Part shown: piece by piece, positions 8,301-61,400 of the stretch
Layout of the letters: every line of letters starts with the position of its first letter
Numbering within the stretch: the stretch's first letter is position 1
Source: Deuterostichococcus epilithicus
Taxonomy: Eukaryota > Chlorophyta > Trebouxiophyceae > Prasiolales > Stichococcaceae
DNA: 64,000 nucleotides
Assembly: GCA_033439295.1 (NCBI GenBank)
Contig: JAVTLE010000004.1
Span: forward strand, 620,012-684,011
Direction: 5' to 3'
The notes under the pieces: generated by a model
What the model was told of the DNA's origin: nothing
What the model saw: only the letters and a program-made list of their open reading frames with translations
The model's database searches: none
Translations under genes and position numbers: made by a program

Positions 8301-11300
8301 CTCGGAGCAGCACACCAGCTCGCCGCCGTCCCAGCAGATCTGCGCGTCAGTCCAAGGGTACCAGTAGGAGCTCGGAAGGGGCCACGCAGAACACACGCAG
8401 CGTGGCGTCGGCGCTTGAGCACGCCAGAAGGGTCTGATTTCACTGACCAGTCTGTGAAATTGCTTCCAACAAACCGGTTCGAATTTGTTCTAGGCCAGGT
8501 TTGCAGTAGGAATGTTTACCGGCGGTGCGGTGCAAGTGACGCAGTGCAAGCCCAGTGCCATCGCCGCACATCAGGCTCAGCAAGGGGGCACGTTTCTTTC
8601 AAGGAGCAGTTCATTGGGACTGGCACCACGAGGGTTGCACGAGCTCCTGCTGTAGGATAATTGTAGACACACCTGGCAGGTTTCCGCGTGCTGGTAGTCG
8701 GTGCCCGCAATCTGGCGGCTGGTGCGGCGCCCGGTCGGCTCCTCCAAGCCGGCGCGCTGTGTCTCCGAATCGAACACGCTGGGCTCGCCCTATAGTCAAC
8801 GATGGAAACCGCTTTTGAGAGCAGNAGNCCTATGATACCAGGGANGGGGGTTGGACAGGTGTCTCCGGTTCGCACTCGGGCTCGCCCCGTATCATATCTC
8901 AGCCCTTCTTCTTGAACAGGCAAGGCCATCTGGAGGCTGGAGTGAAAACTGGTCAAGCGGCTCATCTGCCACGAGGTTGCATGGAACGCACCGTGGCGAG
9001 GTCGTAGTTGTTCTCGCGCAGCACCTGGTGCTTGCCCACGGTGATGAGGCGCTGCTTGCGTGACCGCTGTGCGCCCACCCAGAACTCTGCCGCTATGTCC
9101 TGCAGAGGATCGGGCTGAGAGTCAGCGAATGCAAAAGGGTGACTGCGTGTGAACAGGGTACTGTCAAAGTGAGGAGGCGCTGCTCTGTGGGCGCTGAATG
9201 CCTACCCATGACACTGCAGCAACGTCTGAGGGGGTGACATGAAGGCTCAGAACATGCAGGCGCCTGTGGAGGAGGGGCATCTCGAGCAGCCGACAAATGT
9301 GCGGCGCAACATGCACGAGTTCTCGGTGTGCTACATGTCACTGAGCCTCCTTCCTGTAGAGCAGCTGAGTCTGCGCAAAGTCGGCGTCTGGCTGCCAGAG
9401 CGAGGAGCACACCAGGCTCAGGTAGGCAGAGTGTCATAGTTCCGTCTGCTACTCACTGTGCGTTAACGTGCATCAATGCAGCGTCCGACCTGGGCCGAGG
9501 CTCGATACAGCCATCAGTTCTTCACTCCAGCCTCCAGATGGCCTTGCCTGCCCTCGCATCTGCAATTGAGAAGTGAAGAACAGCGCAAATAAGAAAACAA
9601 ATCAAAAGCTCCTACCCGCAGCGACCGTTCCTTAGAGTAGTCCTGGCCGTGCAGCATGAAGGACGACAGCGGCGCCGCCTCCGCGTCGAAATCCGCCGCG
9701 CTGTGCTTCACCTCCGCCGCCGCCGCCGAGAACGCGCCGCCAGCCGGCGCGCCGTTCGACGCCGCGCCGTTGGCCGCCGATCCGTTGGCTGCCGCGCCGT
9801 TCGGAGCGGCGCCCGCCGCGGCCTTGCCGNCTGCTGCTGCGCCGTCGCCGCCCGCCGCCACGTCAGCGGGCTCTGCGACCATGTGACGTGTGCAGCGGTG
9901 GATGAGGCCATCCGGCTCGGCGGCGAACGGCACGATGTGTTGGGACAACAGCACGTGGACGCTGCTCGACCAGCGGATCAGCTTCACACCTGCAGCGGCG
10001 GCGCGGTTGTGGGAGCGGTCGATGATGTCGTCCAGCTCGGCATCCGACGGCGGCCGGCCCTCCGCGGCGGCAAAGATGCGGTCCGCGCCAAAGCGCAGCA
10101 TGCTCAGCAGCTCCTTCTTGCTGAGCGACGACATCTCCTCGATGCCTGCGGCGACAAAATGGGGGACATTTTCAGGGGTGTGGGCTGCAGACTACTGCCA
10201 GTCTGCACCGCACTGCAACAGCTCAGCAGCGCCTCCCTGTTCAATGACCTCGTAATCTTAGTCCTGCAGCAACATCAGTTGTTGCACGCATTGATGAGAC
10301 GGCAGCGAGATCCCGCATGCTTCGTGCTTTATCGAGATCAAAGCCCTGAGACGAGCCTCCCTCATATGTTGCCTTTGCTTTGGCCTCGACGCATCCACGC
10401 AGCATGCTGAGAGTCACGACGTCTCATCAACGCGTGCTACAACAGGCATATTCGTCATGTGATGTGGCGCATCATCTCAAGTGCCTGATGCTGCGGCGGC
10501 CGCGCCTACTGGCGCCTGCTCGAGCATCGTTTGACACTCGAGCATGGCCACATGCAGCAACGCAGCAGCAGTGATTCCGCAGATCCGCAAGCTTCCAGTT
10601 GCTGGTGCTGCCCCTCGAAAACCTGGCATCGCATACTCGTAGCCAAAGTGCGCTCTACATTCCTCAAAAAAGCAGGGGGTTGATGATGCTTAGTCAGGGG
10701 CCTTAAAACCCTGATATTTCACGCACCGCGCACGGCGCCGCGGTTGACCATCTGGTCCAGGTACAGCTTCTTTTCGGCGCGTGCCTGGACCCGCTCCTCC
10801 ACGGTGCCGGTCGTACAGAAGCGGTACACATGCACCGGGCGTGTCTGCCCGATGCGATGCACGCGCGCCATCGCCTGCAGGTCCCACTGCGCCACGGAGC
10901 GAAAGCAGGATGTCGGATTATGGGTTTTGAAAGCGCAAAGATATTGCTGGGGTGCGTCTGGCTGATGCGGTGCACGCGCCATCACCTGCAGGTCCCTCCG
11001 CGCGATAGGGAACAAGGTGGGTTGCTAGTTGCGTGCTGGAATAAGGAAGAAAGCAGGGTGAAGTGGTACGCCCAGCGCCCTGCAACATGATCGTGGTCCA
11101 TTGCCCTCTTGTCATCGCCACTTGACCGACTCCAGAACAGGCTGCGGCTTGCGCACTGTTGCCTTGACGCCTGCATTGTGCGGGCACCCGTCTGCAGGTT
11201 GGCCAGCACGCGAGGGGCTTGGGGGGGGCGAGCGGCGTTCGAACGCAGCCCAGAGGCTGCAGCCAAAGGAAGCAGAAAGCACACACTTGCGGGTTCCAGT

Positions 11301-14300
11301 CGCTGTCGTACAGGATGCAGGTGTCGGCAGTCTGCAGGTTGACGCCCAGGCCACCAGCGCGCGTGTTGAGGATGTAGATGAAGACGGCCGAGCCCGGCGC
11401 CTGGAACTGCGCGATGTCGATCATGCGCTGCACGCGGTTGGTGCTGCCATCCAAACGCAGGTACCTGCGGCGCCAGAAGATGTGAAGAGTCACGATGTAT
11501 CATGTCAGAATGCGTCATGTCCGACCGCAGTACCGTCAGTCGGCCACCGTTCATCGCAAGGCCCCTCCGGTTGTTGCAGTGGTGACAGTGCAAAGGTTTG
11601 CCCCTTGACATGCACGCATGAGTACGGGCAAGACGCTGCACGGGAGAGCATGAGGTGCCGCACGAGGAGAATGGCATGCTGCACGAGAGGCAGGAGTAGC
11701 ATACACATGCAGTAGAGTAGCAGAGGCCTGGCGTCCGGGTGTCCGTGTTTGGGATGCGGCCAGAGTGCAGATGAAAATATAGTAGCATCGTTGTCCGGAC
11801 TCTCTGGGAGGCAGCTAGAGTGCCCCAGCACACACACACACACAATATGTTGCACAACATGTCGCGCACTTGTAGCCGCGCAGGAGGAGGTAGTCCTCGA
11901 TGATGTCCAGCATGCGGTTGGACTGGCTGAACAGTGTGACGCGGTGCCCGCGCTCCTTCAGCCGCCCCAGCAGCCGGTCCAGCACCCCCATCTTGCCGGC
12001 CGCCTCCACTACATCTTCGCCTGGGATGTGTCAAAAGACAACGGAGTGAGATTCAAATGTATGTTGAATGACGTCAGGACTCCGGTCCAGCAACCCCCAT
12101 CTTGCCGGCGGCCTCCACCACATCCTCGCCTGGGGTGTCCAAACGCACGAGGAACGAGTATCTCGATTTCACTGTGAGGGGATGCTTGTGGCGGACAGCA
12201 GCCCAGCAGCAGGTGTAGCACCCCAGCCTGGCCCACCGCCTCCAAGGCGACCAAAGGGGATTCACACAAGAAAGCTGATTCTGGAGTTTTGCTCTGCTGC
12301 CTCCACTGCGTCGTCGATGCTGCAGGCCAGATTTCTCTGACCTCAGCTCGCTTACAACTGTCAAACCGACCGGCAGCAGTCACAACAACGGCCTTCACAC
12401 CGCCGTCCGAAACATCTCCGCAGCACCAGTCTGTGACACGCAAACTTCTTGGTTTCTGAGAACGATCAGAGGTGCGGCTCCGCGCCTCCGGGAACAGGCA
12501 CGACTGGTTGCAGCAGCAACGGTTCTGCAGCAGCAGATGTTGGCCAGAATGTGCCGCTTCCTCACCGGTGGTGGTGCCATCGAAGAAGGGTTCTGCTCCT
12601 GGGAACAGGTACGGGTGGTTGCAGCACTTGCGCAGCTGCATGATGAGCATCTGCAGCTTCTTCCACGCATTGTTGTCCTTCTCGTACTGCGGCCGTAACA
12701 GATTTGCCGTCAGTAAAGGAGGTTTCTTAAAGGGTGATTTTCCGAATAGTATTGCTAAGTCAGCAGATGCAGCGACACGCCGGTTTGCCCGGGCCGGCGC
12801 TGGCCGTCAGGAGATCAGAACGTGCAGAGTGTGCTGGGACACAAAGCGCAGTCCGCGCACCAGCTCGTGTTAGTCCCCCTCAACAGCTGTTGAAGGCTCG
12901 ACAGGCATTCCATGGCTTGGACAACACCAAGTGGTCTGTCATGTTGTAAGAAGATTGAGAGCTGCGGGGTGCCGCACCTCCACGGTCTGGTGTTCCGCCT
13001 CGATGGCGGCCAGCATGCGGGAGTCCTTGAGCAGCAGGCGGCGGTACCAGAACGTCTGCATCGCGCTCAACGGGCAGGTGATGCGCGTCTCCACCTGCAG
13101 TTGGCAGGGGCACCTCGAAAGGATTCCAATTTGTCATGCTCTAGGTTCTGGTGCGGGGCGCAGCAGGCAGCCGACCCAGTGGCGGGCTGTGGGCACAGCC
13201 TAGCATAAGTTAGCCTGGCTCGACTTGGGCTCCCAGGCCTGCTTGAGACAGGAGGCTTACCATTCCTGTGAACCATGCTCACCAAGGAATGGCGAGCCTC
13301 CCGTCTCAAGCAGGCCTTGCACAGCCCAGGCCGGCACGCTCGACTCTCCGCATTCACTCTTGGCGGACTGGTGGGCCCTAAACCCTCTCTCGGTGCCGCA
13401 CCCGGGGCGGCAGCGTGGTCTCCACCTCCTCCTTCAGGCGGCGCAGGCACAGCGGCCGCAGCAGCAGGTGCGCCGCCTCCAGCACCGCGTTGTCCACCTG
13501 GGGTACCAAAAATGGTGTTCAGGCTCGATCTGCGGTGGCGTGAGAAGTCGCAAGAAACACTCGAAAATATTGAAAATTGTGGGGTACCGCGGCAGGTGGG
13601 CCGCCTCCGGCACCTCGTCGGCCACCTGGAGGTTGGTAGAGTTTAAAGTTCAGGGTTTTGATCTGATGTTCGAGCTCAAGCTGCGACGGCATGAGACAGG
13701 ACCTGGCATGCGCGGGGTGCTGCAGCGCAGCCGCGCCGCCTCCGGCACCTCGTCGTCAGCCCCCGGGGGTTGTGACGGGAGCGGCTGGCAGGCACTCGTG
13801 ACCGAGCCGCGGCGGGTATGCATCTTTGCTCAGTCTTGGCATGCAGCACGGCGGCCGCAGCAGGGGGCCTGCCGCATGCAGCACGTCGATGTCCGGCTGT
13901 GCCCCTGAAGGGCGGCGGCAGCTCAGCCCCCGACGGCAGCCAGGCGTCGCTGCAGCGGACTGCAGGGCGAGCCAGCGGCAGCGGAGCGAAACGCGGCCAG
14001 CGGGAGCCGCCCCCCCACGACCAGGCCGCGCAGTGCGCTGGCTGCAAGTCTCCTTTATACCATCACACCAGTGCCATCACGACAAGGCAAGATATGGCTT
14101 TTTATTCTATTTCTCACCTTGTGCCGGACGAGGTCGAAGGCATCGTCAAAGGGCGCCGCGTCGGTGAACACGTCAGGGTGTAGATACGACAGCAGCGCGT
14201 ACAGCTCGTGCAGGTTGTTCTGCATCGGCGTCCCCGTCAGCAGCACGATGTGCTGGTGCCTGCGGCGGGGAGGCAGGGAGGCGTGATTCGCTGGGTGTGT

Positions 14301-17300
14301 CTGCGGGAGCGCTCAGCTCGAGCGGGCGTTTTGCAGCGGCGGGCCGTCAGCAGCACGATGTGCGCCAGCCATCAGCAAGAATGCTTCGATTGCCGCGCAG
14401 ATCAACCGAAGGCGCCTTCGGGTTGCCGCGCAGATTTCAGGTGTTTCGTGGGACCAAGTGCAGTCTCGGTTGTGGCGGCAGGACAGGCGGCACCGAGGCG
14501 TGGCGGCGACTCAGTGCCAGCCGCGCCCAAGAGGGCGGCCGCGCCCGCCGACAGCACTGACTCAGCCCTGAATCCTTGCCATTGGACTCAAGCTGCTGCC
14601 TGCAGCAATGGCGGCGGGGACTGTGGCAGGCGAGGGGGCGCACGCGACATGACGCATGGCGTGCGCGATGGCTGTGTTCTCGTTCTTTATCTTGTGCCCC
14701 TCGTCCAGCACCAGCACCCTGCAAGACGCAGGAGCCACGTGACTCGACGGATTTCCAGCTGGAGAGCGGTGTGCCTCGGGAAGCCAGCCCTGCAGCGCAC
14801 AGGCAGGCGCAACAATGTGCGCCATCCTGACTGACCGCTGTATACTTAGTCACCGTTTCTGGACACACGCACGCCATAGGCCTGCAAGCCACGACAGCAG
14901 GGGCAGCTGCGCAGAGAGATGCCATGGGCCGCCACAGGCTGCAGTCACCGGAGGACACCGTTTCAGCGTGGCCTGAGAAGGCTGGCACGCTCAAGTGGCG
15001 GCAACGGGCTGACGGCAGCCCTGGGGCAGGTGCATCGCATGACGCAATACTGCAGTGACGGTTGCACACCATGTAGGACACCCTACACATGGGTCTGCAA
15101 GCAGCAGCGCATCCAGCAACAGCAGTAAGTTGGAGCAGCGGGACGTCAAGCAGCACGCACGCGTGCATGGCGGCGGCCCACACCGCCATGGTTGATGCAA
15201 GCCAGTGTCATCGGTCAAAGCAGGGCGCATGCTGGCAGCATTCCGCTTTGGCTTGGTTTTCGGACATGTCGACGTATGTTCCTGGCACTGCCAGAAGATG
15301 GCGCGAGCCAGGCGCGATGCCGGTAATTGTTGTATTGCAGGAAGGCGGACAGCCGGCAATGCCCCATTCGGCTCGGTGTCAGATCTCGCTCGGTGTCGAT
15401 TCTCGGTGTCACAACAGGAAGCGCACCGCCACGTGATGGTGCGTGCGAGGGCGGAGCCGAGGCGCGCGCTCATCATCATGTCGTACGTCGTGATGGCCAC
15501 GTCGAACTTGCCCGGGTCGCTCAGCACCTGTCCAGCGACCGTGCAAAGGCGTTCAGCCTCGAGGCAGCGTCCCCTGGATGCGGCTCGTCTCCTGCTGTGC
15601 CGCTCACGCTGCCCAGCACAAGACTCCCCCGGGTTGAGCGGTGGCAGGGCCCAGCCAGCCACCGGGTTTTCACCTTGAACTGCCTTGGGCACATCGCAGA
15701 CCACCCATCCGCCCCCATCTGCCGCAGCCGCTTGCACTTCCGCCGTCATCAACTGATGTGGAAGCACAACTCATGCATACCTTCCAACACTCGCTTTATT
15801 GCACAGTCGCAGATGTTCCAAAGCTCACATTGCCACAACACCCCCTTCAAGTCCATCAGCTCGAGCAGGACCAACCTCGCAGCTGCAGTGTGGCTGTAAA
15901 CCCTGACATGTAAACCCACCTCCTGCCGCAGCCGCTTGCGCTCGCCGACGTCGTTTGTGTGGAAGCGCACGACCCGCAGGTCGGGCGCCCAGCGCGCCAG
16001 CTCGGCCGCCCAGCTGGAGACGACGGAGAGCGGCACCACCACCAGGGAGGGGCCGGCGATGCCGCGCTCGCGCTTCAGGTACGACAGGAAGGAGATGGTC
16101 TGCAGCGTCTTGCCCAGGCCCTGCAGCTCATACACCACATCTCTCACGGCAATGCCATTTGCGTGCGCCCCTCGCCAGGAAGGAGGCAGTCTGCGGCGTG
16201 TCCTCTGTCCTTCTGGAAGATTGCTGGCTGATGGATTGAGCCGACCGCCACCTCATTGCCCATAGGGATGTCAGCGCCGTTGTACAATCGGTCCAGCAGC
16301 TGGCGCAGGCCCACCAGCTGAGGGGAGTACTCACGCATGCTCAAACTTTCTTTTGAGAAGAGGTTCAGCAGGTTGTGTATGTGTGGCCCCCTGTGCACAG
16401 CCCTACATGCCATCAGAGGCCTGGGGTCTGCGCCACGCCGGCGGAGACTGCCCATCAGGATTCTCAGCCAGGATGGTGATCACGCCGTTGACGATGCGCT
16501 CCACCCGTCAGCTGGTGCTATGCGCAATCTCACCTTTTCATCCGACGAAAATTCCAGCACGTGCGTGTGCTGCCCAGCAGGTCAATGTCCACCTTGGCTC
16601 TCGCACGCCAGAAAGCAATCCCACAGAAAGGCCCACCATCTCGTCAGCCAGGATGGCATTGACGCCGTCGTCGAATCGGTCCACCAGCCAGCGCAGCCCC
16701 GCCAGCTGGTACTCGCGCATCTCGCCGCCCGTCACACCCTCCGGTTGGAACTCCACAGCGGCCGGCCGCGCCTCGTCCTCTGCCGCCTGCGCCGCCGCCG
16801 CACTGCAGGAAAGGCCAACAACAAGTCTTGTAACTGAACCGTTCTGTTTGAATGCACATTTACAAAAGGTTTATAAGATCCGCCGCCGGTGGCCCCCTTC
16901 GGCTGATATTCCAGTGATCACGGGCACGCCTCGGCCTCCGCCGGCTGCGCTGCTGCCGCGCTGCAAGGGAAGCATAAGAGGGGGTTTGTCCCGCCGCCGG
17001 GTGACGCCCCTCGGCTTGCATCTGACGGCTGCCACCCGCGCCTCGTCTTCTGCCGCCCTGCGCCGCTGCAGCGCTTGCGGAGAAGACACAGATGAACAGC
17101 TCGTTTGCTGTTTGAGGTGCAAGGACTGCTGGATCTCCACCGCCTATGACGCTCTTTGCCTAGAGCTCCCCGCGGCAGAGGCCACCACCTCCGCCGTTGC
17201 CTGTGCTGTCGCGGCGCTACGAGCGAGGAAGAGGGACCTGGCGCCAGGATCAGGATTCGGCCTGCTGGCAGCAAATTGCCGCCAAGCACCTATTTGCAGC

Positions 17301-21741: not shown

Positions 21742-24700
21742 ATGAGTTCCGCAGCTCCAAACGCGCCGGCAACGCCCGCCGCCTTCTACAAGATGATCAG
21801 CATCCCGGAGGCGCAGCAGACGGTGCTGGCACACACGCGTGTGCTGGCGCCGCAGGCGCTGCCCCTGGCCAGCATCCTGGGCCGCGTGCTGGCGGAGGAC
21901 GTCAGGGCGTCGGAGCCGCTGCCGCCCTTCCCGGCGTCCATCAAGGTGGGACCGCTGCGGTGGCGGCACACCGTACAGTGCTGCAGGCCACTCGGCGGCA
22001 TGTTTCTGATGTCCAAGGGATGTGTCATCCAGCGAACCGCAACATACTGCTCGCCACTCCTCTCTTTGCGAGCCGTGCTGCACCATCACACTGCTGGCAC
22101 TTGCATCTGGTTATGCCCGATATCCCTGCATCATGGCAGGACGGCTATGCAGTGGTGTCGTCCGACGGGCCCAAGGAGTATGAGGTCGTCTTTGAGGCGC
22201 TGGCGGGCACGGAGCAGCAGACCCTGCAGCCGGGCACCATCGCCTACATCGGCACAGGCGAGCCCGGCTGCCGATTTCACAGTTGCAGTCCTGAATCCTT
22301 TGTGGGCGGATTGTGGCCGTTTATGCTGCACTCCCGCCGCACTGCGCCGCGCTACGTGCCACGCTGCTGCTGGTGAGTGGGGAGCTGCGCGGCGGGCAAA
22401 GACCAATTGGCAATCGCCTGCCCAGTCTGCTTCATTTGCCTAAAACCTGCGCTGACATCACTTCTCTCCTCTATGGCGTTCCGCCAGGCGGCCCGGTCCC
22501 GCACGGTGCGGATGCGGTGGTGCAGATCGAGGACACCGAAGTGGTGGGCCGCACCGCGCTGGGCGCTCCCGTCGTCGACATCAAGAAGGTGGGCAAGATG
22601 TTTTTCAACAATCTCAATTGCCATCAAGAAAGTGGGCCAAGGCCCGGCATGATGGACCAAAGGACCGTTGTAGCTGATGCAGCAGCGCCAGCCTCGAGGG
22701 TGGGAAGCGTCGCCGACGTCGCCGGCCGGACGCAGGCGGGCAAGCCGGCGGCGTACCTGCTGGTCGCCGACCCAGAGTCACGATCACATCAGCTTCGCCT
22801 GCAGGCCGCAATTCGCAACACACATCTCAATCATGCCACATGCATGACGACGCAGGCGGCGCGGCAGGACATCCAAGTGAGCCGACTCGAACACCTGTAC
22901 CCGCCATGCCTAAATCAGCAGCTGTCAACAGAGCTGCCGGTATGCGCGTGATGCAGGCGGCGCAACCGGGGCAGGACATCCGCGCGGTGGGCTCGGACAT
23001 CCGTGGCGGCGAGACGGTGCTGGCGGCCGGCGAGCGCATCGGGCCCGCCGAGATTGGGCTGCTGGCCACCGTCGGTGCCGCCACTGTGCAGGTGCCCACG
23101 ACTGCCGCGACTGATGCCCGCGCTGTCTCGCAGTATTGACATAGACATCGATTGGGCCGCCAGTCTCCGCTGCTGGGTGCAGGTGTGCCTGCCGCAGGCT
23201 TCCAAGTGGGTTCATTAGCTTCTCACGCATCTCAAAGGTTGCGTGGACTCACTCGTGCAGCTTCTGTGCGTTGCGGCTGTGGCCTCGACAGTCTGGAGGC
23301 AGGCCAGGCTGGTGACGGCTGAGCCCGGCGCGTTCACACCCTCGCTGGCCATGACAAGGATCCACCTTGTAATTCCGCAACCAGCAATACCTGTAATAGT
23401 CGTGACCCCTTCCCAACCCTCATCGGAGCCGCACATGCTGTTGGACAATGAGGGTCCAGGATACCGCGAGGCTTGCAACTTCCAACCATGATCCTGCCGC
23501 AGGATGATGCTGCGCTGACTCGCAGGTGCACGCGGCGCCGCTCGTGGCGGTGCTGTCCACAGGCGATGAGGTAGCAGAGCCCGCCACGCCGCACCTGCGG
23601 CCGGGCGCGATCCGCGACGCCAACCGCCCAATGCTGCTGGCGGCCGCGGCCGACGCCGGCGCCAGCACCCTGGACCTGGGCATCGTGCCGGACTCCGCGA
23701 GGCTGGAGGGTTTAGAGGCGGCGCTGCACACGGCGCTGGAGAATGGAGCCGACGTCCTCATCACCTCGGGTGCGCCGCTGTCGCATTCCGGCCCACCCAC
23801 ATGCGCCACCGACCCTGCTCGTTGGTGGTGCACCTTTCGGTCCTCTTGGTGGATCACTCGAAACACCTGCCTGGCCGTGCCGCGCGCGGTCTGTGGCTGC
23901 TGGAGCGCCGCCGCACCGCTGCACGACTGGCGCTCGCGCTGTTGGAAACAGGCAATGTGGAGACGACCTGCCGCAGGAGCTGTGCAATGGCCTTCTCGTC
24001 AATGGGCCACCGTAGTGGGTTTCCAGGGGGAACACGGACTGTGTCCAAGCCGCTGCTAAAGCGGTGGCTGCGCATCAATGTGTATGGAACGGCTATCAAG
24101 TTCGACAGCTGGTCCAAGTCTTCTTTGAAACAAGTCAACATGCCGCCGCAGGCGGGGTGTCCATGGGAGACAAGGACTTTGTCAAGCCGCTGCTGGAGCA
24201 GCACGCAACCGTCCACTTTGGCCGCGTGCGCATGAAGCCTGGCAAGCCGCTCACATTTGCGACGCTGGACCGGCCAGGCGAGCCTCTCACACACAGCGCT
24301 GGTGACGAGCAGCATGTTGCGACATGTTCTGTAAAAACACATTCCACGCCAGCTCTTGCCACTGCCTGCTTGCTGTGCTTTAGTTGCAGAGGGCAATACA
24401 TCACGCGTGTTCGTTCGGTAGCATCCTGCTGCCAAGCGGAAGCACTGACTGTCCAGCTGCTTGCCTATGGCCAGACTCAAAAGCTTAGCATCCAGTGAGC
24501 CGAATACCGTGTTGAGGGTCCCGGCGACTGCGTGACTGCGCAGGCGGGGGCAAGCGGCTGCTTGTGTTCGGGCTGCCGGGCAACCCCGTCAGCAGCCTGG
24601 TCACCTTCAACCTGATTGTGCTGCCGGCGCTCCGCCGCCTTGCGGGCTGGAAGGTGTGCATTTTGACACCACAATGTTGCACCTGATGGACCTTGCCATA

Positions 24701-37218: not shown

Positions 37219-37260
<42 letters not shown>

Positions 37261-38319
37261 GGGTGCGGCGGCGGGCCATGGTGGTGCGGGCCCGGCCCGT
37301 GCTGGCCGCTGTGGTGGTGCTGCATTGGCCCCGGGGCGCCGTGCGGGTTCCCGGGGTCCTGCTGCAGCGGCATGGGGTATGCCACCGAGCCCGGCGGCGG
37401 GCCATCGTGCTGCAGGAACCCGCCGGGCTGCTGCATGTGATGCGGCGGCGGGCCGCCCATGTGCGGCAGTGGCATGCCGCCAAGGCCGGGCGCAGGGTAG
37501 CCGCCGTGCATCGGCGAACCGCTCTGCATGTGGCCGGGGTAGCCCTGCGGCGGGGGCCCAGCCATGCCGCCGGGGCCGCCATTCATGCCGGGCATGCCCA
37601 TCATGTAGGGCGGCGGCGGCCCGCCCGGGTGCTGCGGCGGTGCCTGCATCATGGGCGGGCCGCCAGGACCCGTGGGGAACGGCAGCTGCTGCATCATCAT
37701 GTGCGGCGGCGGCGGCGGGCCCATGAGCTGCGGCTGCGGCGGTGGCGGGCCACCGGCCTGCAGGCTGGGTCCATGCCGCTGCGGAGACAGCGGCGCGGGC
37801 ATGCCCGGCTGCTGGAAGTAGCCGGCTGGCGGGGGGCCGTGGGGCGGCGGCCCGTGCGGAGGGCCGCTGCCGCGCTGCTGGTGCTGGTGCTGCGGCTGCG
37901 GGGCCATCTGCAGACTGCCTGAGGGCCCCATGTGCGGCGCGGCCTGCGGCACCGCTGAGGGGCTGCCGCCATCGGGCGCCGGGCCACTCGCCTGCGACTG
38001 CGGACGCAGCGGCTGCTGCTGCTGCTGCTGCTGCTGTGCAGCGTGCGGCGCAGGCGGTGATGCGCCCGATGGCTGTTCCCCCCCAGGCGGCGGAATCACC
38101 ACCACTGACGGCGGCCGCGCAAGCGGGCGCTGTGGCACCTGCTGCTGCTGTTGCTGCTCCTGCTGTGACTGCTGCTGCTGCGCAGCGGGCGGCGCGGGCT
38201 GAGGCGGGCGCGCACCAGCCGCTGGCGGGGTGACCACGACCGGGCGCGGCGGCGGCGCCCGGCCGCCGGTGCTGCCGCCGCTAGGGGGCTTTGCAGGCCG
38301 CCGCCACCGGCGGGCGGCA

Positions 38320-38350
<31 letters not shown>

Positions 38351-44300: not shown

Positions 44301-47300
44301 CAGAGGCCGCCCGTGCTGCCCAGGAGGCCTGGTCCGCCAGCGCCGTGACCAGCGCCTCGTGCGCGCCGCGCGCTGTCGGTACCCGGCCGCCTGCGGCATG
44401 ATAGGGGCCACGGCATTCGAGAGCAAGTCGACATCTCCGAAAAGATGAAAGGGAGGCCAGGTTCGTCAGCGCAGTCACGACGCCTCGATAGCGCCGCGCC
44501 GTCCGCAGCCCCACCTGCCTGCGATCCACAGCAGCGCTGACTGTGAGCAGCTTTTATGTGGAAGGTTGGTGTGGGCAGAATGGCCAGCGAGCTGTTGCAT
44601 CAAGCATCGTCGCCAGCAACTCTTGCGCGCAGCGCGCTGACTCACGGCCCGCCCGCGGGGCCAGGGCAGGGTTGGGGGTTGCATTCAAGCAAACGGAGGA
44701 GGTTGCCAGACAGCAGGATAACAGGTTGGACGTACAGGCTTTCCAGCAAAGCACGTGTTCGGGATGGCCGGCAGTGCTCCCATGAGGCGTAGCATCCACT
44801 AGAATACATCACGGGGCATTCAGGAAACCCAGAAAAGCTCAGGAAGCTGCCCAACGTGTGTCATTTCATGAGCATGGGCTGGCAGGACACCCCAAGTAGC
44901 CAGCGAACATGCGCGCAAACCCACAATGACGTAGCGGCTGCCGTGGGGTCAAAGCGCGCACCAAGGCAGCGCTTTGCGCCGTCTCGCGCCTTTTCCGCGG
45001 TTGACACAATGGTGCCGTACACCCACTCCAGCACCAGCCCCATCTTGTGCGGGTCCTCCTCTGGGCCCACCTGTTGCGGAGTTGGTGAGGAATGCTTGAT
45101 GTCGGGACGTGATTGCTATCATAAATGCTGAAGTGATTGCGAAGCAGGTCCTGAGCTCGCCAAGCAGGCAGGGGGTGACCCCGCCAGCGCCTCTGTCCCA
45201 AGCCAGCACTTCACCTACCTAAGGGCAGGTGCGACAGGCACGGCAATTGCTAATGGCTGGAGTGCATGACAAGCATGCTTCTTGTGTTCAAAGCTGCGGC
45301 TGGCATGCCCTGCCACGCAGGTTGTCACGCAGGCTACAGGGCTGCGTGACAGGCATGCCACCTGCAGTTGAGAACAAGGAGCAAGCACCTTGCGTGGGTG
45401 GCCGTCTTCGCTGCTAGCACATGCACACGCTGTCGCATGCATGCGACAATAATAGGCTGCCGAATCCTGCTGAGTGGACCAAGGGGATTGAAACTCCTTC
45501 AATTCCCTTGGTGTGGACAGCGCGCACCTTGCGCGGGTGGCCGTCCTCACCCAGCTGGCGCTCGGCCAGGTGGCCCAGCCACTTGGCGTTGACCGCCAGC
45601 CGCGTGCCGCCGTCGAGCAGCGTGAAAAGGTCCACGTCCCCAATGCCCTCCTCCTCCTCCTGCATCGGCGAAATGTGCATGCGTCGGCGGAATGCGGATG
45701 GGTGGTCCGATACAACAGAGCCCGGTGAGTGAGGTGTTGCGCCGCATGCAGGACATCTGTGTGACCTGTCGTGGTTCTGCATATCGGGGTTCTGCGTCCA
45801 CAATTAGCTGCGAGAGAGATGCGCTCCTTCGACTTTCACTGGGAGAGGATCCGTCAGGGGCAGGCCGCCATGTGCATGAACGATGCTGGGTGGGCTGCAG
45901 CCTCGCCTGTGCATCCCCAGTCTCAATGCCCCTTCCCCTCTTCTCCTCAAGAACAAAGCCTCCCGCAGCACAGCCAGCAGCGCATTGACCACATCCTCGC
46001 TGGCTGCCTCAACCTGCATCGATCCGGTTTCCCGCTCATCAATCTGGCGCCCCCCGCACACATTGAATGTCTCCTTTTTCAGCGCACCTCCACGTCTGCG
46101 TCCTTAGCCTCGGGCTTGAGCTTGGCGGAGAAGCCGTCGATCTTCTCCGTGATCCACTCGCAGATGCGGGCGACCTCGTCCGGCGGCAGCCGGTCCAGGT
46201 CCTCGTAAAAGAGCTCCGTGCGGCTGGACTCGCGCTGCCCCTCCGGCAGCACCTCGCACACGAAGCTGGTCACCGGGAACAGCACCGCATGGTACCTGCG
46301 TGCGGCACCAGAGGCATGCGAGCATGAGAAGAGGGGGAGAAGGCCCGGGGGGGGGAGAGCTCATAATGCAGGTTTGAAAAGTTTAAAACTCAAGGCTGTC
46401 GCCACTACATTTGCAGAACACTTGCATGCGTTGCCTGCTTGTAAACTTCCTGTTCAGCACGCCTCCTGCAAGGCAAGCTCAGAACAGGAGCCACACACCA
46501 GCGAAGCAGCCATGCACATGCCGCGACCCAGCCTGGGACGGACTGCAGCGCGCTGCGGGGGAGCTGAAGCAGATCTCAAGGATGTGCGCAGGCTCCGGGC
46601 TCCGGGGGACTCTAAGTGGGCTCCGGGGGGGACTCACAGGAACTCGTGCTCCTTCTCCAGCGCCGCCAGCATGGTGGTGATGAGCTCCACGTTGGCGTCG
46701 CGCATGGGCAGCGCCTCACCGCCGCCGCTGCCGCCGCGGGGCCGCAGCGCCGGCCGCCGCTGCTGCGCCGCCTCCTCCTGCAGCTGCCGGTTGTGCGCGT
46801 GCACCTGGGACAGCAGGTCCGACCTGCGCACGACAGAATTGACGCAGAGTCGCATCAGAATCGCATTGACTGCTTGATGTGCGTGTTTGATTGATGGGCT
46901 TGGAGGTCCGACCTCTGGGTCCCTGCAGCTGGAGTTGCACGCGTACACCTGGGGCAGCAGGATGCAGGAGGAGCTTGCTTGAAGTAAGGCCAGTGGGATT
47001 CGTTTTGCACAGACATGAGGCCACGAAGCCACTGGCATGGGCTGCCGCAGCACAGGCCCGATGGCCTTGTCAACGGGCCGCGTGCCAGGCGGGTCTTCCA
47101 GCAGCAGCCACCTGAAAGTCACTGTCTCCGGAAGGAATGCGGTGCAGCGGTGCGATGTTGCTCTCACATGCGTTGCCGCAGCGCGGCCTCGGCAGGCTTC
47201 TCGATGGGGCGAGTCCCCGGTGGATCCTTCGGCAGCAGCGCCCTGAGCTCCGGGTCCAAATGGTCCGTCTCCACGCAGCCACGGAAGGACTCTGCGTCAT

Positions 47301-49003
47301 AGAAGCTCGCTTCGCCGGCGCCATCGTCGTCCGCCGGCCACTGCCAGATCTGCGGAAGGTATGGCGCAACGCGCAACTTCAGGCCTGCATTTCAGTCGTG
47401 GCTCAGGCAACCGAGGCCAGCGTTGCGCGCCAGCACAGCTCAGCAGGAGTTTGATCCTTTAAGGAAAGACATCCAGTCGTGCAAACCAGGAAATGCAGAG
47501 CTGTAACGCTGGGCAAAGCCAGGCGGAGACCGCCGCAGACGGCCAACACCCTGGTCCGACTGCGAATTCCGCATGGCAGACCCACCTTCCAGGTCTTCTT
47601 GTCGGTCTGCAGGCGGGAGAGGCCCTCCTCCAGGACCTCCGTCAGCGTGGGCTCCGGCGGCAGCGGCAGCAGCTCCTCGCCCGCCGCCTCTGCCTCCGCA
47701 ATTTCCGCCGCTGCAGGAACGATCCGACATTCTTTGTGCGCAGTGACTTCATCGGTGGAGGAAATTTGCAGTCAGAGCCTGGGCGTCAGGAAGTGCAGGC
47801 GGCATCCGTCCGCTGCGCCTCGCATTCAAGGCATCGCATGTGCAGCCCAATCGCACCAAAGAGCGATGCTCTTCCTGCAGGCGAGACAAGCTCCCTTGAC
47901 ATGCACCAGTACTCCCAAACGGCACGCACCGGCCTGTTTCTGGTAGCGCTCAGTGAGCGCCGCAGCGCGCTCACGCAGAGCTGCCACATCCAGCGTCAGC
48001 AGCTCGGTGCGCTCCTCCGGGTTCACCGTCTCCCAGAAGGGGCGCACTGCGGCGACCCGCTCCTGCGGCAGCGCCTGCACCTCATCCTGTGGGCGGGCAG
48101 GCGAGTGAGCTGTCAATTCACGCGTCAAGCACAGCGTTGTGGGCTTCCACAAGGGATGCATGCCGCCACCCGCTCCTGCGGCGATGACTGCACTCTGGCT
48201 GCCCAGCCACAGGGATCTCAAGGCATGATCGACTCCAAAATATTTGCTTCCATGAACCCCTGACGCACATGTGCATGAACCTCGGGATGCAGGGAGCCGC
48301 TTGCACGCTAGATTGCGGTTCCAAGTCCACTTGCAGATTCCCAGCTGTGCCTCACCTCTTTTGGAAGGGCGGGGCGCTTGGCCTCCTTGACCGGCTTGGA
48401 GCCTTTGCCATCCTTGCCCTTGCCCTTGCTGGACGCCTTCTTCTTGTTCACGCCCGGCATGCCGCCGCTCTGGGGTTTCCTGGGGGCCTGCGGGCGGCAG
48501 CGTTTCCGGCCGCCTGCTGCGCCGGCGCCTTGCTGCTGTATCCGCTGGGCTGGCCGCGGTGCAGGGGGCGCCACCTGCTGTGGCTGCCTCCCTCCGGCCT
48601 GGCTGCCGTTGGTTGTTGCGGTGTGCTGCTCAGCCACTCGAGCCGTTGGCTGCTGGCAGGCGCCGAGGGCTGTGGTTCGACTGCTTCGGCTCCCTTGTAT
48701 GATCTGCGGAGCTGCTCACTGGGTCGAGGCGGCAACTCCGCTAGTCTGCGGTCCCCATGGTAAAAGGCCGCCCTCACATCGTGAGGGTGGCCGTAATGAG
48801 CGCCATGCTCGAGCGCCTGCTGCGGTGTCCACAGCACGGCGCCTGTGCAGACGCACCTGCAGCAGGTTGGAGTCAAACATTCAGTGTGGCACCCTGTCAA
48901 GACCAGCCCGCTAAGCAGGTGCGCGCGGAAACCTCAACCCCGCATTCTGGACCAGCCACAAGCATGGGAACGTCAGGCTCCTCCAGGGACAGGCAGGACG
49001 TGC
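32650..49003 (-). CDS. Giant ubiquitin carboxyl-terminal hydrolase-related protein (plant DUF629/UCH type)
   Basis: Resembles the plant UCH-related proteins that join a helical DUF629-type region to a USP-like catalytic domain. N-terminal exons include about 49003-48933 (CLSLEEPDVPML, tentative), 48842 onwards (AVLWTPQQALEHGAHYGHP) and a Lys-rich KKKASSKGKGK block. Helical and coiled-coil exons follow, for example RVAAVRPFWETVNPEERTEL (near 48050), RICEWITEKIDGFSAKL (near 46150), TFFAWIQRERRAVEERL (near 41160) and an Arg/Glu-rich coil near 40300 and 39370. A Pro/Gln-rich segment of roughly 900 residues spans about 38960-36130. The catalytic box GQNNCFLNVVVQSLWH has its Cys codon at 35763-35765, and the His box GHHYQAYAL has His at 32803-32805, followed by FDD. 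The stop is 32650-32652. The true start and any DUF627-like N-terminus were not found. Four single Ns (near 36146, 36372, 36977 and 37164) coincide with frame changes. Exon limits are approximate, and activity is inferred from the Cys and His boxes. Confidence 0.75.
37221..37259 (-). repeat. (CTG)13 tract encoding polyglutamine
   Basis: Thirteen uninterrupted CTG units on the plus strand give 13 consecutive Gln codons in the Pro/Gln-rich segment of the minus-strand ubiquitin-hydrolase-like gene. Shorter Gln runs of the same kind occur nearby (about 36741-36770, 38011-38036, 38320-38350). Confidence 0.85.
39886..40017 (+). repeat. 132-base dispersed repeat, copy A
   Basis: This 132-base segment begins AGATATTATGACCGGCACAG and ends GCTTGACGAAGCGCACA. 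It recurs at 43125-43256 with 3 visible substitutions and no gap. Both copies lie between recognised exons of the minus-strand ubiquitin-hydrolase-like gene. No terminal inverted repeat or target-site duplication is evident. Confidence 0.9.
43125..43256 (+). repeat. 132-base dispersed repeat, copy B
   Basis: Same orientation and length as 39886-40017. Flanking bases differ outside the 132-base unit, which shows that the unit boundaries are sharp. The copy is in an intron, so it is presumably spliced out. Confidence 0.9.
43696..43850 (-). repeat. Intronic copies of an ubiquitin-hydrolase-gene exon
   Basis: The exon encoding AAEKPDEESRELPDQVIMAM (about 43632-43560) has a copy at about 43696-43760 encoding AAEKPDEELQELP. 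A shorter third copy lies at about 43808-43845. The three are direct repeats of decreasing similarity. Confidence 0.7.
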
Positions 49004-52258: not shown

Positions 52259-55200
52259 ATGGCCGCGCTCAGAGGGCTCCTCCGGACCACGGCTTTGGTT
52301 CTCAGACATGAGGGCCCTGGCAGCGCACTAGCCCAGGCGACGTGGCTCCAAGGTAGTAATGCCACAACTGCGCTCGCTGCGGCCGGCCTGACAGGCCGGC
52401 GCTACATCAGCACGTCGCCCGCGCACGGCATCTCCAACTCCACGCTGGACCCTTCCCTGGCCAGGAGCATGACTCCCACGAACTTTGGCATCAGGTGCTA
52501 CCCCATAGCTTAGGCATTTTGCGCGCCTTGAACAATGATGCTGCCGCAATGCATGGTGTGGGCGCTGCGTGCCTTGCCCTAGTGCAAACCATGTGAGTAC
52601 TCGTGTGCAGCTGCAGGTGCTCTGGTCAGAGCACCAAGATGCTGTCATTGCTCATTTCTGGTGCCCTGCCAACCCCCAGGATCGTGCCGGAGCGGACGGC
52701 CTTTGTCATTGAGCGCTTTGGCAAGTATGCCAAGACCCTGACGCCAGGGCTGCACTTGCTCATCCCCTTCGTAAGTCACATTCGCAGGCTTTGCGTATCG
52801 CTGCATCGGTGCTCATCTGGAGGGGCCTGGCTGCTGGTCGCGTTGCACGTCCTGCATATGCCTGTCCAACAACCCCTGTAATGACGAGCTGCGGTCTCGG
52901 GGGTGTGCAGGTTGACAAGATCGCCTATGTGCACAGGTAAGTTTTTGCATCTTGTTTGCACGGAAAGCGCAGCTGAGCAGCATCGTCCTGCAGCCATGGT
53001 CGGCCCAGCAGTGCAGCAGAGCGCCACAGTGAAATTGCTCACTCTGTTCTGCCAATCTGCAGCCTGAAGGAGGTGGCCATCCCCATCCCGCACCAGGCAA
53101 GCGGTCTGCAGCTCTTCCGAATCTGCTGCGCAAGTTCATGCAGACTAGAAGTGCACGCAATGAGCTTGCCACCAATATGAGGACTTGCACCCCTGTCCGG
53201 CAGACTGAGAGGTTCCAGCAAACCGGTCAACTCTGTCGGCCTGCTGAATCGTTGTTGTACTTCGTGCAGAGCGCCATCACAAAGGACAATGTTTCCATCA
53301 ACATCGACGGCATCCTGTATGTCAAGGTCAGGCATCTCGGTGCTGCCCACGCAGTGCGCTGCGGGTTGCGCCTGCCACAGCCGCTGCATGTGTGCCCGTA
53401 CTCGTCGGGACCTACATCGTTATGCCCTGCTCGCTGCAGCCACTGAAGTGGGGCCACAGTGCTCCAGAATGCAGTGCAGCAGGCGTACTTTATTGGCCTG
53501 CAAATTGGGGATGCGTGCAACGCATCCTGTGGGGCAGAGCCCCCTGGTTCGAAACATGTGTTTTGGCCGATGATGAACAACAAACAACAAGAAAATCAGC
53601 AGGTTGTGGCAGGAACAAGCACATCGTATGCGTGGTCGAGGATAAGCATGTATGCTGAAAATCATCAACAATCTGGCTGAGGTTTTCCGCAGAAGCATGC
53701 GCGCAAAGCGTCCTACGGTGTGGATCTGCTGTTCGCAGCAACCCAGCTGGCCATAACTGGATCCCCTGAACCAGCAGACCACCGGCCCCCGCAGATCGTG
53801 GATGCCCGCAAGGCGTCATACGGGGTGGAGAACCCGCTATTCGCGGTCACACAGCTGGCGCAGACAACGATGCGGTCCGACATCGGCAAGATTTCGCTGG
53901 ACAAGACCTTTGCCGAGCGCGACACGCTCAACCAGAACATCGTCAAGGCCATCAGGCGCGCCCCCCCTGTGCCCCTGTGCAGCGTCCGAGCCAGGAACCG
54001 CTTTTCTGGCTGGGACCTTCGGGGGTCCTGTGTCTGGCGCGGCGGCGCGACGGCGTAGCGGCGGGCACGACTGAACCCTGTTGCTGCACAGGACACATGC
54101 ACTTTCCATGTTCGGCGACGTTGGGACCACACCCACAGGCCTCACGCACATCAGGGAGCTTTGTCGAATGCAAAGGCTGAACGTTTCTCGCATTGCAGGG
54201 AGGCGACGCAGGAGTGGGGTATCGACTGCATGCGATACGAGGTGCGGCCTGCGCGAGCGGGGCGCCTTGCCACATGCTCACATCTGCAGCACTGTGACGA
54301 ATTGACTTTCTCGACAACCGGGCGCACAGCACTGCTGCTCGCACTCTGCGCTCCGCCACCGCAAGCCTTGTCGTCAAGAGGGGACCCTGCCGAGGCTTCA
54401 TCCATGCCATCGTAGATCCGGGACATTGCGCCGCCTGCTGGCGTGCGTGCCGCCATGGAGCTGCAGGTCCGCCCTCGCCTGAAGCACCGCCGAGCTCGCA
54501 TGCACTGAGCGTCCGTGAGTTGCGCACCGGCGGCGACATGCATCAGCGACGCCAGAACAGGCCGACAACCTGTGAAGTGTGCACACCCGCACTGCAACAC
54601 CTCATAGGGACATCAACGGGTTTGCTGAGCTGTGCAATCGGAGGCAGAATGGCGCTGCCAGGCGCGGACTCTGGAGCTGCAGGCGCCCGCCAGTCCAGGA
54701 TCGACGTGCAGGATGGCAACAGACAGAAGTGCCTTCCTGATGGCGCCTCACGCCTGTTCAGCAGGCCGAGGCGGAGCGGCGCAAGCAGGCGCAGCGCCTG
54801 GAGTCGGAGGGCGCCCGGCAGTCCAAGATCAACCTGCGAAACGGCAACGGCAGCACCTGCGGGAATGGTCGTCACATCCTGAACGATCTCACATGCACAC
54901 TCAGGCCGAGGCGGAGCGGCGCAAGCGGGCGCAGATCCTGGAGTCGGAGGGCGCCCGCCAGTCCAAGATCAACGTGGAGGAGGGTAACAAGGCAGGCATC
55001 ATCCTGGCCTCCGAGGCCGCGCAGCAGGACTCCGTGAACCGCGCCATCGGTGCGCGCCCCTCTCAGGGTTTAGGGTCCAGGGGTGTCCTTCCCTCTGTCT
55101 CCGCGCGGCAGGACCCGTGAACCGCGCCATCGGTGCGCGCCGTTCAAAGGGTTCAGGGTTCAGGGGTGTTTTCCCTCTTTCTCCGTGCAGTAGGACTCCG

Positions 55201-56401
55201 CCGTCGCCGCGCCATTGGTGCGTGCCTCTTGCGCTCAATGCTACATGGCTCCTGCTACACACAATGTGACAGTAGCAGGGCGGGCAGCGTCTTGGCCTCT
55301 GTGGCCGCATGCGGGAGTCTTCGAACCGCGCCATCAGTGAGCGCGCTCTGGTTCCGCCAGTGCCGCTGTTGCAAATGTGTTTCGGCACGACTGTTGCTGG
55401 GTGTCCTGCACGCAGTGTCCCGACTGCGTTGTGTGCAGAGCCCTAACAGAAGAGCACGGCGTGTAGTCGCATTGCAAGGCTCAGGGCGGAGGCCCTTCAA
55501 TCGGCGTCTCCCCTGTTGCCGCAGGTGATGCGGAGGCGATCTTCCGAAGAGCGGAGGCGACGGCCAAGGGGCTGGGCCAGATCTCAACAGCCATCAGGGC
55601 GGACGGCGGCACCGCCGCAGCCTCCATGCGCATTGCAGAACAGGTGAAGGCAGCATGTCATCCAGGAAACGCGCACAGCATTTCAAGCCTGCGTGTTGCT
55701 GCCCCGGCGACTTGCCCGGCACCCGCCTGCGGTGGGCGTGTCCCTGCGGCGTCTGCATGCTCCCAGGCCTTGTGGCAGCAGCCATTGGGGGTAACGACAC
55801 ATTCGCGCACATGATCCAGGGTCATAACTGACTCCCGATGCCCACACAAATGGGCGGCTGTCAAACTCTAGCGCGACTCAGCGCCTCTTTGAAGCCCACC
55901 GCGTCATCCCCAAACTCTGAACCTCACAAACCCTGAACGGCTGTCTGCCGTCGCCGCAGTATCTGGCGGCCTTCGGCAACATCGCCAAGGCGGGCAACAC
56001 GATGCTGCTTCCTGCTTCCGCCAGCGACCCCGCCACCATGGTGGCCCAGGCGCTGTCCATCTACGGCAACGTCAGCAAGTCGCAGCTACAGGTCCCCAGC
56101 GGGTGCGCACTGCGCCAAGCAGGAACTGCCAGCCACAGGCCTGGGTCAGGCCGGGCAGCGGCCCTACTGACGCGTCGGCGGCTATTCAGTTGGAGTGTGC
56201 CAAGTCCTGACCCCACTGGTCGGCCCCCGAGTGGCTGATATGCGCTGCCCAAGACGGGGTTCACGCGCATAGCCTCGTGTCTCTGCCTCCAAAGTGCTCC
56301 TCCATTGCCTGCAGGGACGGTGCAGGCACCCCAAGCGGCGCTGGCGGCAGCGCGCAGTCGGCGCAGCAGCCGCAGCAGCAGCCGCAGCCGCAGCAGTCGA
56401 C

Positions 56402-56454
<53 letters not shown>

Positions 56455-59111: not shown

Positions 59112-59118
59112 TGCGGAG

Positions 59119-59156
59119 AGTCTGTGCATCCGAGCAGAGTCTGTGCATCCGAGCAG
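59119..59156 (+). repeat. Perfect 19-base tandem duplication just after the kinase DFG exon
   Basis: AGTCTGTGCATCCGAGCAG occurs twice without a spacer. Nineteen is not a multiple of three, so the duplication shifts any frame read through it. Each copy begins after an A with GTCTGTGC and ends in GCAG, so the pair also looks like a miniature GT...AG unit. Confidence 0.9.
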
Positions 59157-60078: not shown

Positions 60079-61400
60079 ATGCCGGCGCCGCCGCCAAATG
60101 ATGTGCGGCCGCCCAAGATCTTCCCGCACTGCATCGTGTGGACGCCGATACCAGTCATCACATGGCTCCTGCCGTTCGTGGGACACATGGGCATCTGCGA
60201 CAGCGTTGGCAACATCCATGACTTTGCAGGTGCTGCCGCCACCAAGTGCCGTGTCAGAGCACTGCATTCAGTGTCCTCTGAGCCTTGCTGCTTGCGGCTG
60301 ATTGATGTCGCCAGCCGATTGTGTTCTGCACCTTTTCTGACTTGCATCAACACTGACGCAGGGCCCTACTTCGTCAATCGCGGTGATCTGTCATTCGGGT
60401 CCCCTACCAGGTGCGCAGCGCATTGAGTCTGCCCAGCGCTCAAACGGCGCAGATGTCATTTCATGAATCCGCACCACCACACCTGTGACCCGCACCAACA
60501 CGAGACCTGCTGCGTGTGGTGCGCCTGGCGGACGCGGCACCGCTGCGCCCCGGCAGCTTCAGTAGACGCGAATGCCGTCATGCCAGGCGCCTGCAGCCAT
60601 GCCTGCCTGCCAGCGGGCGCACATGCTGTTGCGTTGGGCGCCTGTCAGGCTCCTGCAGAAGAATAGCCGCTTTCACAGGTACCCATCGGCTAAACCCACT
60701 GGCGGAATCCGAAGCACGCATGGGCAGCCCTCAGTGGCGTACCACACTATCCTGGATGGGAAACACCCGTGCTGCCTGTTCAGGTACCTTCAGCTGGACC
60801 CGGGGCGCGCTGCTGCCGAGCAGTGGGACGCATGCCTTGGCGGCGCGACGCGGGATTACGAGCAGCGAATGTACAACTTTTGCGGCGACAACTGCCACTG
60901 CTATGTGGCGCGCTTCCTGAACGATGCTGGCTACGACGGCCGCAGGTGTGCAGTTTATTCCTTTGATGCGGGTTGGCTACGATGGCCGCAGAAACACACT
61001 ACATATTCATAATGCGGGAATACTGAGCCTCTGTAAGAGCTGACGGCAAGACTTGGGGGCCCCTGTAGCGGTTCAGGAATTGGCGCCTCTGCGAGGCCAG
61101 GCCGGGTGCAGCAGGCGGGAGTGTGGAGCAGGCAGTGGGCTTGTCAGCTGCTATTACAGCTAGTGGGCCAAAGCCGGCACATCCAGCAATCTGGGGAGCA
61201 TCCGGGCTTAAGGCTGTTGACATGCAAAATATCATGTCATGATCCTGAACTGCAGGCCATGGACCATGGTGCGCCTAGCAGCGCTCATGTTTTTCCGCGG
61301 CAAGCACGTCGGCGTGCGCGGCTTCCTGCGCACCTGGTTGCCCTTCTGGCTGCTGCTCGGCGGTGTCGTGGCGCTTGCGGGCGCGCTCAGCGGCAAGTGA
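60079..61400 (+). CDS. TMEM222: TMEM222 / RTE1 family membrane protein (DUF778)
   Basis: Endomembrane protein family; the plant member RTE1 acts on the ethylene receptor ETR1 at Golgi/ER. Four exons agree in phase: 60079-60229, 60362-60410, 60784-60945 and 61256-61400, giving 168 residues. Family landmarks are complete: [80 protein letters not shown], and a last exon with [23 protein letters not shown] 60079 is the only in-frame ATG close upstream. Because animal members are about 40 residues longer at the N-terminus, an additional upstream exon is possible. All three introns have GT donors. There is no reason to assume ethylene signalling here. Confidence 0.93.
60967..60990 (+). repeat. Intronic copy of TMEM222 exon 3 end
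   Basis: GGCTACGATGGCCGCAGAAA lies 22 bases downstream of the exon end GGCTACGACGGCCGCAG|GTGTGC. The donor dinucleotide is replaced in the copy. Confidence 0.7.

Follow-up and report, generated by a model that had tools for sequence, protein, structure and literature searches.

A stretch of 64,000 nucleotides (nt) of the green alga Deuterostichococcus epilithicus (positions 620012-684011 of contig C4, GenBank JAVTLE010000004.1; hereafter the window, meaning this whole stretch) carries, inside the introns of its predicted genes, local same-strand copies of the ends of neighboring exons, and the analysis described here confirms that the pattern is real. To explain it, we postulate that introns grew stepwise through tandem-type duplications of about 120 nt at exon edges and that the intron half of each duplicated unit was then lost, a reading to which we assign a probability of roughly two in five.

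The genome comprises 46.8 megabases in 21 contigs, with a G+C content of about 62%. Comparisons were made on a sample of 254 kilobases (kb), consisting of the window and 19 other 10-kb stretches from 16 contigs (L009, L012, and so on, where one has to be named). Gene models came from a small gene finder that was self-trained on this sequence, and all splice sites are predictions from DNA alone; the program settled on GTG(A/C)G-type donors and on acceptors ending in YGCAG. The predicted genes of the window are long and intron-rich, and six of eight proteins taken from them have Pfam matches (SNF2 helicase, MoeA/MoCF [CNX1-like], band-7 [SLP2-like], UCH, UPF0172, and RTE1-like/TMEM222). What the original prediction treated as one ubiquitin-hydrolase-like gene covers two predicted genes, 32650-45665, which has the UCH domain, and 46079-48880, for which the part tested gave no Pfam match.

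The copies had been described as local, same-strand, and decaying, and this description is borne out. Each of the 17 intervals originally listed scores higher than all of the roughly 200 distant 800-nt segments of the window (p 0.005 each), its own reverse complement, and all 200 of its own shuffles, and in 16 of the 17 the partner is a predicted exon. The margin is narrow for 42822-42870 (score 27, with a shuffled maximum of 25), 60967-60990 (score 29, 17 matched bases), and 22848-22880 (score 30). The similarity had been put at 85-95%; the best blocks in the listed intervals are actually 70-100% identical over 17-83 nt. In addition, 47035-47110 passes the local test, but both of its members are predicted exon, so it may be a coding repeat, while 55107-55345 does hold an exon-end copy and also includes a true tandem repeat of 84 base pairs (bp) with intron sequence. 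Copies at 32892-32927, 13589-13894 (three copies), 44452-44499, 46922-46961, and 16881-17075 were missing from the list.

Searches that do not depend on the gene models give the same picture. In a BLAST comparison of the window with itself, 29 direct repeats within 2 kb were found versus one two-arm inverted repeat (E value <= 0.01). Across the 19 stretches and the first 60 kb of the window, the part used for this count, there are 56 direct local repeats with offsets of 40-600 (30 and 26, respectively) and 13 inverted matches, 11 of them single palindromes and two of them two-arm repeats; seven of the 19 stretches contain no direct local repeat. By class, the 56 comprise 31 exon-intron, 19 exon-exon, four intron-intron, and two exon-intergenic repeats, and several of the exon-exon labels arise from a copy that was itself called as an exon. 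The alignment of introns with their flanking exons that the original prediction had called for, run on the 254-kb sample with our own gene models, yielded a score of at least 32 in 34 of 798 comparisons (12 with the upstream exon and 22 with the downstream exon), versus none after reverse complementation and 0.3 expected from exons of other genes. Two of the 34, proline-rich low-complexity comparisons in L018, were dropped from later pair tests. The copies are thus found not only throughout the window, as had been claimed, but also across the sampled genome (17 of 608 comparisons outside the window, the two from L018 included), with the window itself being richer (17 of 190). Chance or compositional similarity is ruled out by the reverse-complement, other-gene, and shuffled controls.

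The spacing between copy and source is regular. Among the 33 pairs with a spacing under 170 nt, it is 119.5 +- 20 nt, mostly within 95-160 nt, and it is independent of the length of exon copied (rho 0.10), the repeats being 18-98 nt long. In these same pairs, the exon part and the spacer trade off (r -0.57, p 0.0005). Exact 10-mer echoes between exon and intron rise sharply at 95 nt and drop after 160 nt, with 72 direct versus 3 inverted within this range. A second peak at 250-300 nt (34 direct versus 4 inverted) comes from only a handful of pairs, and there are arrays of three to four copies at roughly even spacing.

Intron length fits the same unit. Introns that hold just one copy exceed the other introns of the sample by 130 nt (95% interval 66-227; n = 28 versus 440; the pairs at 12021, 13498, and 54813, in which the copy is called as an exon, were left out), and once one spacing is subtracted they have the length of ordinary introns (median 215 versus 212, Kolmogorov-Smirnov p 0.48). 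Part of this one-unit excess could be a bias, because longer introns offer more room for a copy; however, the fit of the remainder argues against bias explaining all of it. Furthermore, in none of these 28 introns is the part beyond the copy shorter than 61 nt, versus 6 such cases expected, or 3 (P 0.036) if only introns of at least 100 nt are considered. Each event apparently added one entire unit of about 120 nt beside a complete intron, and the far part, at least 61 nt and of ordinary intron length, points to the lengthening of already existing introns.

In the mechanism that we favor, a local same-strand duplication of the tandem type across an exon-intron boundary would place, at each step of about 120 nt, one extra unit of 95-160 nt (an exon end and a piece of intron, presumably duplicated as a whole) between the exon and the old intron. 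The splice site adjoining the intact exon is predicted to be the one used, leaving the protein unchanged, and the other exon end, stranded in the intron, would decay without coding constraint. The intron half would have to become unrecognizable faster than plain decay allows. Conceivably, only those units survive in a gene whose outer splice region (branch point, pyrimidine tract) has been destroyed or replaced, because a second, exact splice region would itself be used, with damage to the mRNA; the exon half might also be renewed now and then from the live exon.

The copies in the window, with the strand in parentheses, are as follows.
10950-11003 (-), copy, lying in the upstream intron, of the SNF2 exon edge 10837-10892; offset 113; 82% over 56 nt.
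12082-12143 (-), copy of the SNF2 exon edge 11974-12036 together with 16 nt of the acceptor; offset 108; 89% over 64 nt.
13589-13894 (-), array of three copies (13589-13635, 13727-13772, and 13846-13894) of the SNF2 exon edge 13447-13501; spacing about 128-136; the two spacers flanking the first copy are similar too.
14314-14363 (-), copy of the SNF2 exon edge 14202-14253 (LLTGTP motif); offset 112; 83% over 52 nt.
15719-15768 (-), copy of the SNF2 exon 3' edge 15923-15969 in the downstream intron; offset 204; 80% over 50 nt.
16275-16338 and 16464-16512 (-), two copies of the SNF2 exon segment 16644-16720; offsets 388 and 180; 77-78%.
16881-16965 and 17008-17075 (-), two copies of the SNF2 exon edge 16723-16807; offsets 158 and 271; 73-78%.
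22849-22874 (+), weak copy of the CNX1/MoeA-like exon segment 22950-22981; offset 101; 78% over 32 nt.
24017-24057 (+), copy of the CNX1-like exon edge 24155-24194; offset 138; 83% over 41 nt.
24722-24782 (+), copy of the CNX1-like exon 3' edge 24592-24652; offset 130; 89% over 61 nt, gapless; the homology ends 1 nt before the predicted donor, the spacer is dissimilar, and there is one place in the genome.
32892-32927 (-), copy of the UCH-gene exon edge 32795-32830; offset 97; 86% over 36 nt; ends exactly at the predicted junction.
42824-42859 (-), weak copy of the exon edge 42691-42731; offset about 130; 76%, score 27-30.
43699-43752 (-), copy of the exon edge 43582-43635; offset 117; 85% over 54 nt; also called as an in-frame exon.
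44452-44499 (-), copy of the exon edge 44323-44371; offset 129; 80% over 49 nt.
45385-45409 (-), copy of the exon 3' edge 45524-45548 plus the first donor bases; offset 139; 92% over 25 nt.
46922-46961 (-), copy of the exon edge 46777-46817; offset 145; 83% over 41 nt.
48144-48193 (-), copy of the exon edge 48030-48080; offset 114; 78% over 51 nt.
53702-53751 (+), copy of the SLP2-like exon edge 53807-53859; offset 105; 75% over 53 nt.
54641-54721 and 54762-54836 (+), two copies of the 5' edge of the SLP2-like exon 54902-54989; spacings 127 and 140; 77% and 93%.
55017-55344 (+), 3' edge of the same SLP2-like exon 54902-54989: 84-bp tandem repeat 55017-55226, which spans the exon-intron boundary (spacer homology z 7.4), and a further copy 55272-55344; the intron part of the 84-bp repeat contains telomere-style repeats resembling TTTAGGG/TTCAGGG.
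60974-60990 (+), short copy of the RTE1/TMEM222-like exon 3' edge 60928-60944; offset 46; 94% over 17 nt.

The copies look dead, with no coding constraint on the copy. Frameshifts are present in 21 of 37, and 3 of the other 16 contain stops. Divergence between copy and exon is 0.156, 0.146, and 0.241 at codon positions 1, 2, and 3, and mismatches that are equal at the first two positions and more frequent at the third are what the divergence of a free copy from an exon under selection should produce. It could be argued that the copies are functional instead, either as alternative or mutually exclusive exon parts or as selected decoys, since the gene finder calls several of them as exons with plausible splice sites (43694-43750, 54762-54812, and L009 near 9889-9922). 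However, the frameshifts and stops, the lack of protection at codon positions 1 and 2, and the fact that only parts of exons are represented make a function highly improbable. At L009 9767-9934, an exon-end copy has acceptor-like and donor-like edges and could be spliced as a duplicated exon of 34 nt.

What can be recognized as duplicated is the exon end and at most about 16 nt of splice site. An earlier pile-up of alignment ends at the junction was partly an artefact of aligning against exons only, and the boundary was re-tested with annotation-free BLAST blocks; of these, 18 of 22 stop within a range that runs from 6 nt before the exon edge to 16 nt beyond it. The spacers were compared in 31 pairs (local tests), 28 pairs (a first pair hidden Markov model, or pair-HMM), and 33 pairs (a later pair-HMM and a splice-flank distance test, five pairs being hand-set); in the later pair-HMM and the splice-flank test, 12021, 13498, and 54813 had hand-set coordinates. 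In the later pair-HMM, true pairs lie slightly above mismatched pairs (7-9 of 33 past the 95% point of the null, t 0.2-1.0). This residual similarity sits in the first 16 nt of the intron (6-8 of 33 pairs versus about 1.7 expected), and branch-point-like motifs peak 20-35 nt from the splice site, beyond the zone of homology.

Boundary duplication does happen, because the spacers of the array 13461/13589/13727 are similar (p 0.003 for 13461/13589) and because, in the most permissive spacer test, 5 of 32 reach p<0.05 on each side, one of these spacers being a glutamine-repeat coding stretch at 38012/38153. The spacer test also detects true duplications, giving z scores of 7-12 for two genuine tandem repeats of 83-84 bp (SLP2 and L015). 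The repeat in L015 (4019-4181) is an 83-bp tandem duplication, 89% identical, within a predicted intron; its unit is similar in size to that of SLP2 and is below the 95-160 range of the exon echoes.

The original prediction envisaged that exon-intron junctions were repeatedly duplicated in tandem and then decayed. Recurrent duplication at the edges of exons, with lengthening of introns, does fit the spacing rule, the peak at 250-300 nt, and the one-unit excess in length. In its plain form, the idea holds that both halves decayed neutrally and that the exon half is visible only because one of its two copies is constrained. This would account for the spacing, the arrays, the orientation, the lengthening, and the few pairs with spacer similarity (13461/13589; L012 141-368). 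However, at equal neutral rates the spacers should be obvious, and as a group the intron halves are unrecognizable beyond about 16 nt from the splice site. The exon-only homology contradicts plain decay because spacer homology is still positive in 96% of duplications simulated at that age (mean pair-HMM log-likelihood ratio +25), versus a mean of -3.4 and 4 of 28 positive in the observed pairs. Likewise, the local tests give a mean z of 0.29 in 31 pairs, with 4 at p<0.05, versus about 15 in simulation; when the live spacer is made to evolve at double the rate, the simulated value is 9.9. In the stretch 16-70 nt from the splice site, z ranges over 0.3-1.1, and 3-4 of 31 pairs exceed the 95% point. 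The failure is worst, and spacer duplication is rejected most strongly, in the pairs whose exon halves are most similar: spacers are not significantly similar at L009 9767/9894 (exon block 95% over 41 nt), SLP2 54762/54902 (93% over 75 nt), or CNX1-like 24592/24722 (89% over 61 nt, gapless), so that exon blocks 89-95% identical likewise lack recognizable spacer homology. Plain decay is consequently unlikely.

These spacer results weigh also against the stepwise growth that we favor, as do several others. Intron-intron 10-mer echoes are absent at 95-140 nt (2 matches in 2.2 million position pairs); at 140-160 nt there are 7 in 0.9 million. Renewal of the exon half in patches, by gene conversion, is not borne out, since mismatches are evenly spread along the pairs (Fisher p for patchiness 0.45, with p<0.05 in 3 of 37 pairs). 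Conversion from the live exon would account for the fact that every SLP2 copy resembles the exon most; by our own reasoning, however, it should keep intron-intron repeats equally well. Finally, pairs of high identity (>=0.88) make up 9 of 37, versus 40% in a simulation of uniform ages, and steady production of copies therefore fits poorly.

Two further hypotheses were considered. In the first, a staggered break is repaired by the insertion of an unrelated filler of about 65 nt near the exon edge, and a long direct duplication of the exon end comes to lie beyond it. The spacers are indeed unrelated to the adjoining intron past 16 nt, and the length data imply that copy and spacer were added together. 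In addition, three queries that include spacers (L009 9790-9893, window 24592-24860, and window 54600-55400) have no second place in the genome, a result that also speaks against dispersed intron elements as the source. However, filler insertion gives no reason to expect a total fixed at 95-160 nt, an exon part that trades off against the spacer, or a peak at 250-300 nt; the repeats are far longer than those described in Daphnia, and a filler of such length without a source would be unusual. We regard it as rather unlikely. A related proposal, in which the exon alone is duplicated and the spacer derives from the following exon, was rejected because there is no group signal beyond the distal end; the exceptions are 3 of 35 spacers that exceed z 2.5 and L020 2127/2247, with p 0.010 on that side.

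In the second hypothesis, exon ends are written into introns, or refreshed there, by copying from an exon template, either through RNA- or complementary DNA-templated repair or through template switching coupled to splicing. Such a process would explain why the homology is limited to the exon plus at most 16 nt and stops before the branch-point-like zone at 20-35 nt, why intron-intron repeats are nearly absent (4 of the 56 local repeats, and the 10-mer counts), and why near-perfect exon blocks stand beside dissimilar spacers. However, no spliced partner-exon sequence was detected beside the copies; spliced mRNA is thereby ruled out as the source, and mature mRNA is an unlikely template. Moreover, the copies take in as much as 16 nt of intron, neither the fixed spacing nor the full-unit lengthening is explained, and the mismatches are not patchy. 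Exon-templated copying of this kind is quite improbable. A broader version, in which some exon-aware process repeatedly writes exon ends, with up to about 16 nt of splice site, into introns about 120 nt away and so makes introns grow in exon-templated modules, is improbable as well.

Tandem duplication is an accepted route of intron gain, and duplication of an exonic AGGT segment yields a new intron composed of exon sequence (reviewed in PMC3443670). The events proposed here would be similar in that the duplication is local and tandem and the protein is unchanged, since the duplicated part is spliced out; they differ in that an existing intron is extended and the added sequence is only partly exon-like. 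The Rogers model, in which a copy of the downstream exon opens the intron and a copy of the upstream exon closes it, does not describe these introns, because 61 nt or more of intron lie beyond the copy in 28 of 28 and there is no partner-exon similarity beside the copies. Of what boundary tandem duplication predicts, a constant unit offset on the same strand and a locus longer by one unit (relative to other introns of the sample) are observed; duplication of both halves is not observed for the group, the exceptions being the 84-bp SLP2 repeat and the 13461/13589 array.

In potato, an intron-exon structure within an RNA-dependent RNA polymerase gene has been duplicated in tandem (Ma et al. 2016, PMC4974935). 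There, too, the duplication spans the intron-exon boundary and splice signals are inherited from the parental junction; however, that is one recent event, and the intron was duplicated with it, whereas here there are tens of cases in 254 kb with no recognizable intron half. New introns in Daphnia are flanked by direct repeats of 4-12 bp and have been attributed to staggered breaks (PMC4202315). They share with the present copies the direct repetition of the adjacent exon end at the far end of the insert, and a trend to longer introns has been proposed for them. However, those introns are wholly new, whereas here repeats of 18-98 nt, rather than 4-12 bp, accompany a module of about 120 nt in old introns. 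Introners (PMC9860276) resemble the present case in the modular growth of intron content; they are one element copied into many genes, in contrast to the single genomic place of the three sequences queried here. No report of exon-end echoes in Chlorella-type algae was found in searches of an open-access library, which cannot settle priority, and the excerpts of PMC3488318 and PMC12636532 hold nothing on such a pattern. Nor do the excerpts on intron gain, potato, and Daphnia mention common exon-end echoes at about 120 nt whose spacers are unrelated. Something of the kind may already have been described for the Chlorella variabilis NC64A genome. Tandem duplication as a source of introns is already known; the prevalence of the copies, the module of about 120 nt, and the exon-only homology look new.

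The lengthening of introns has usually been inferred from rare single cases. A genome with datable fossils of lengthening in 3-4% of intron/exon comparisons, and with a preferred size of the module, allows the mutational mechanism to be tested, and the mismatch between exon half and intron half poses a concrete problem, one not predicted by the standard duplication model.

Several other repeats were seen in the window. In the SNF2-like gene, 8917-8951 and 9515-9550 form an inverted repeat of 36 nt (97%) whose arms lie about 600 nt apart in two neighboring predicted introns, and an 83-nt self-complementary stretch (13235-13317, 82%) is present in a predicted intron near the three-copy array. 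Predicted exons of the UCH-domain gene at 36200-38400 hold many glutamine runs (GCT/TGC repeats) as well as proline-rich stretches. A perfect 19-bp tandem repeat of 2.1 copies, at 59117-59156, lies between the SLP2-like and RTE1-like regions.

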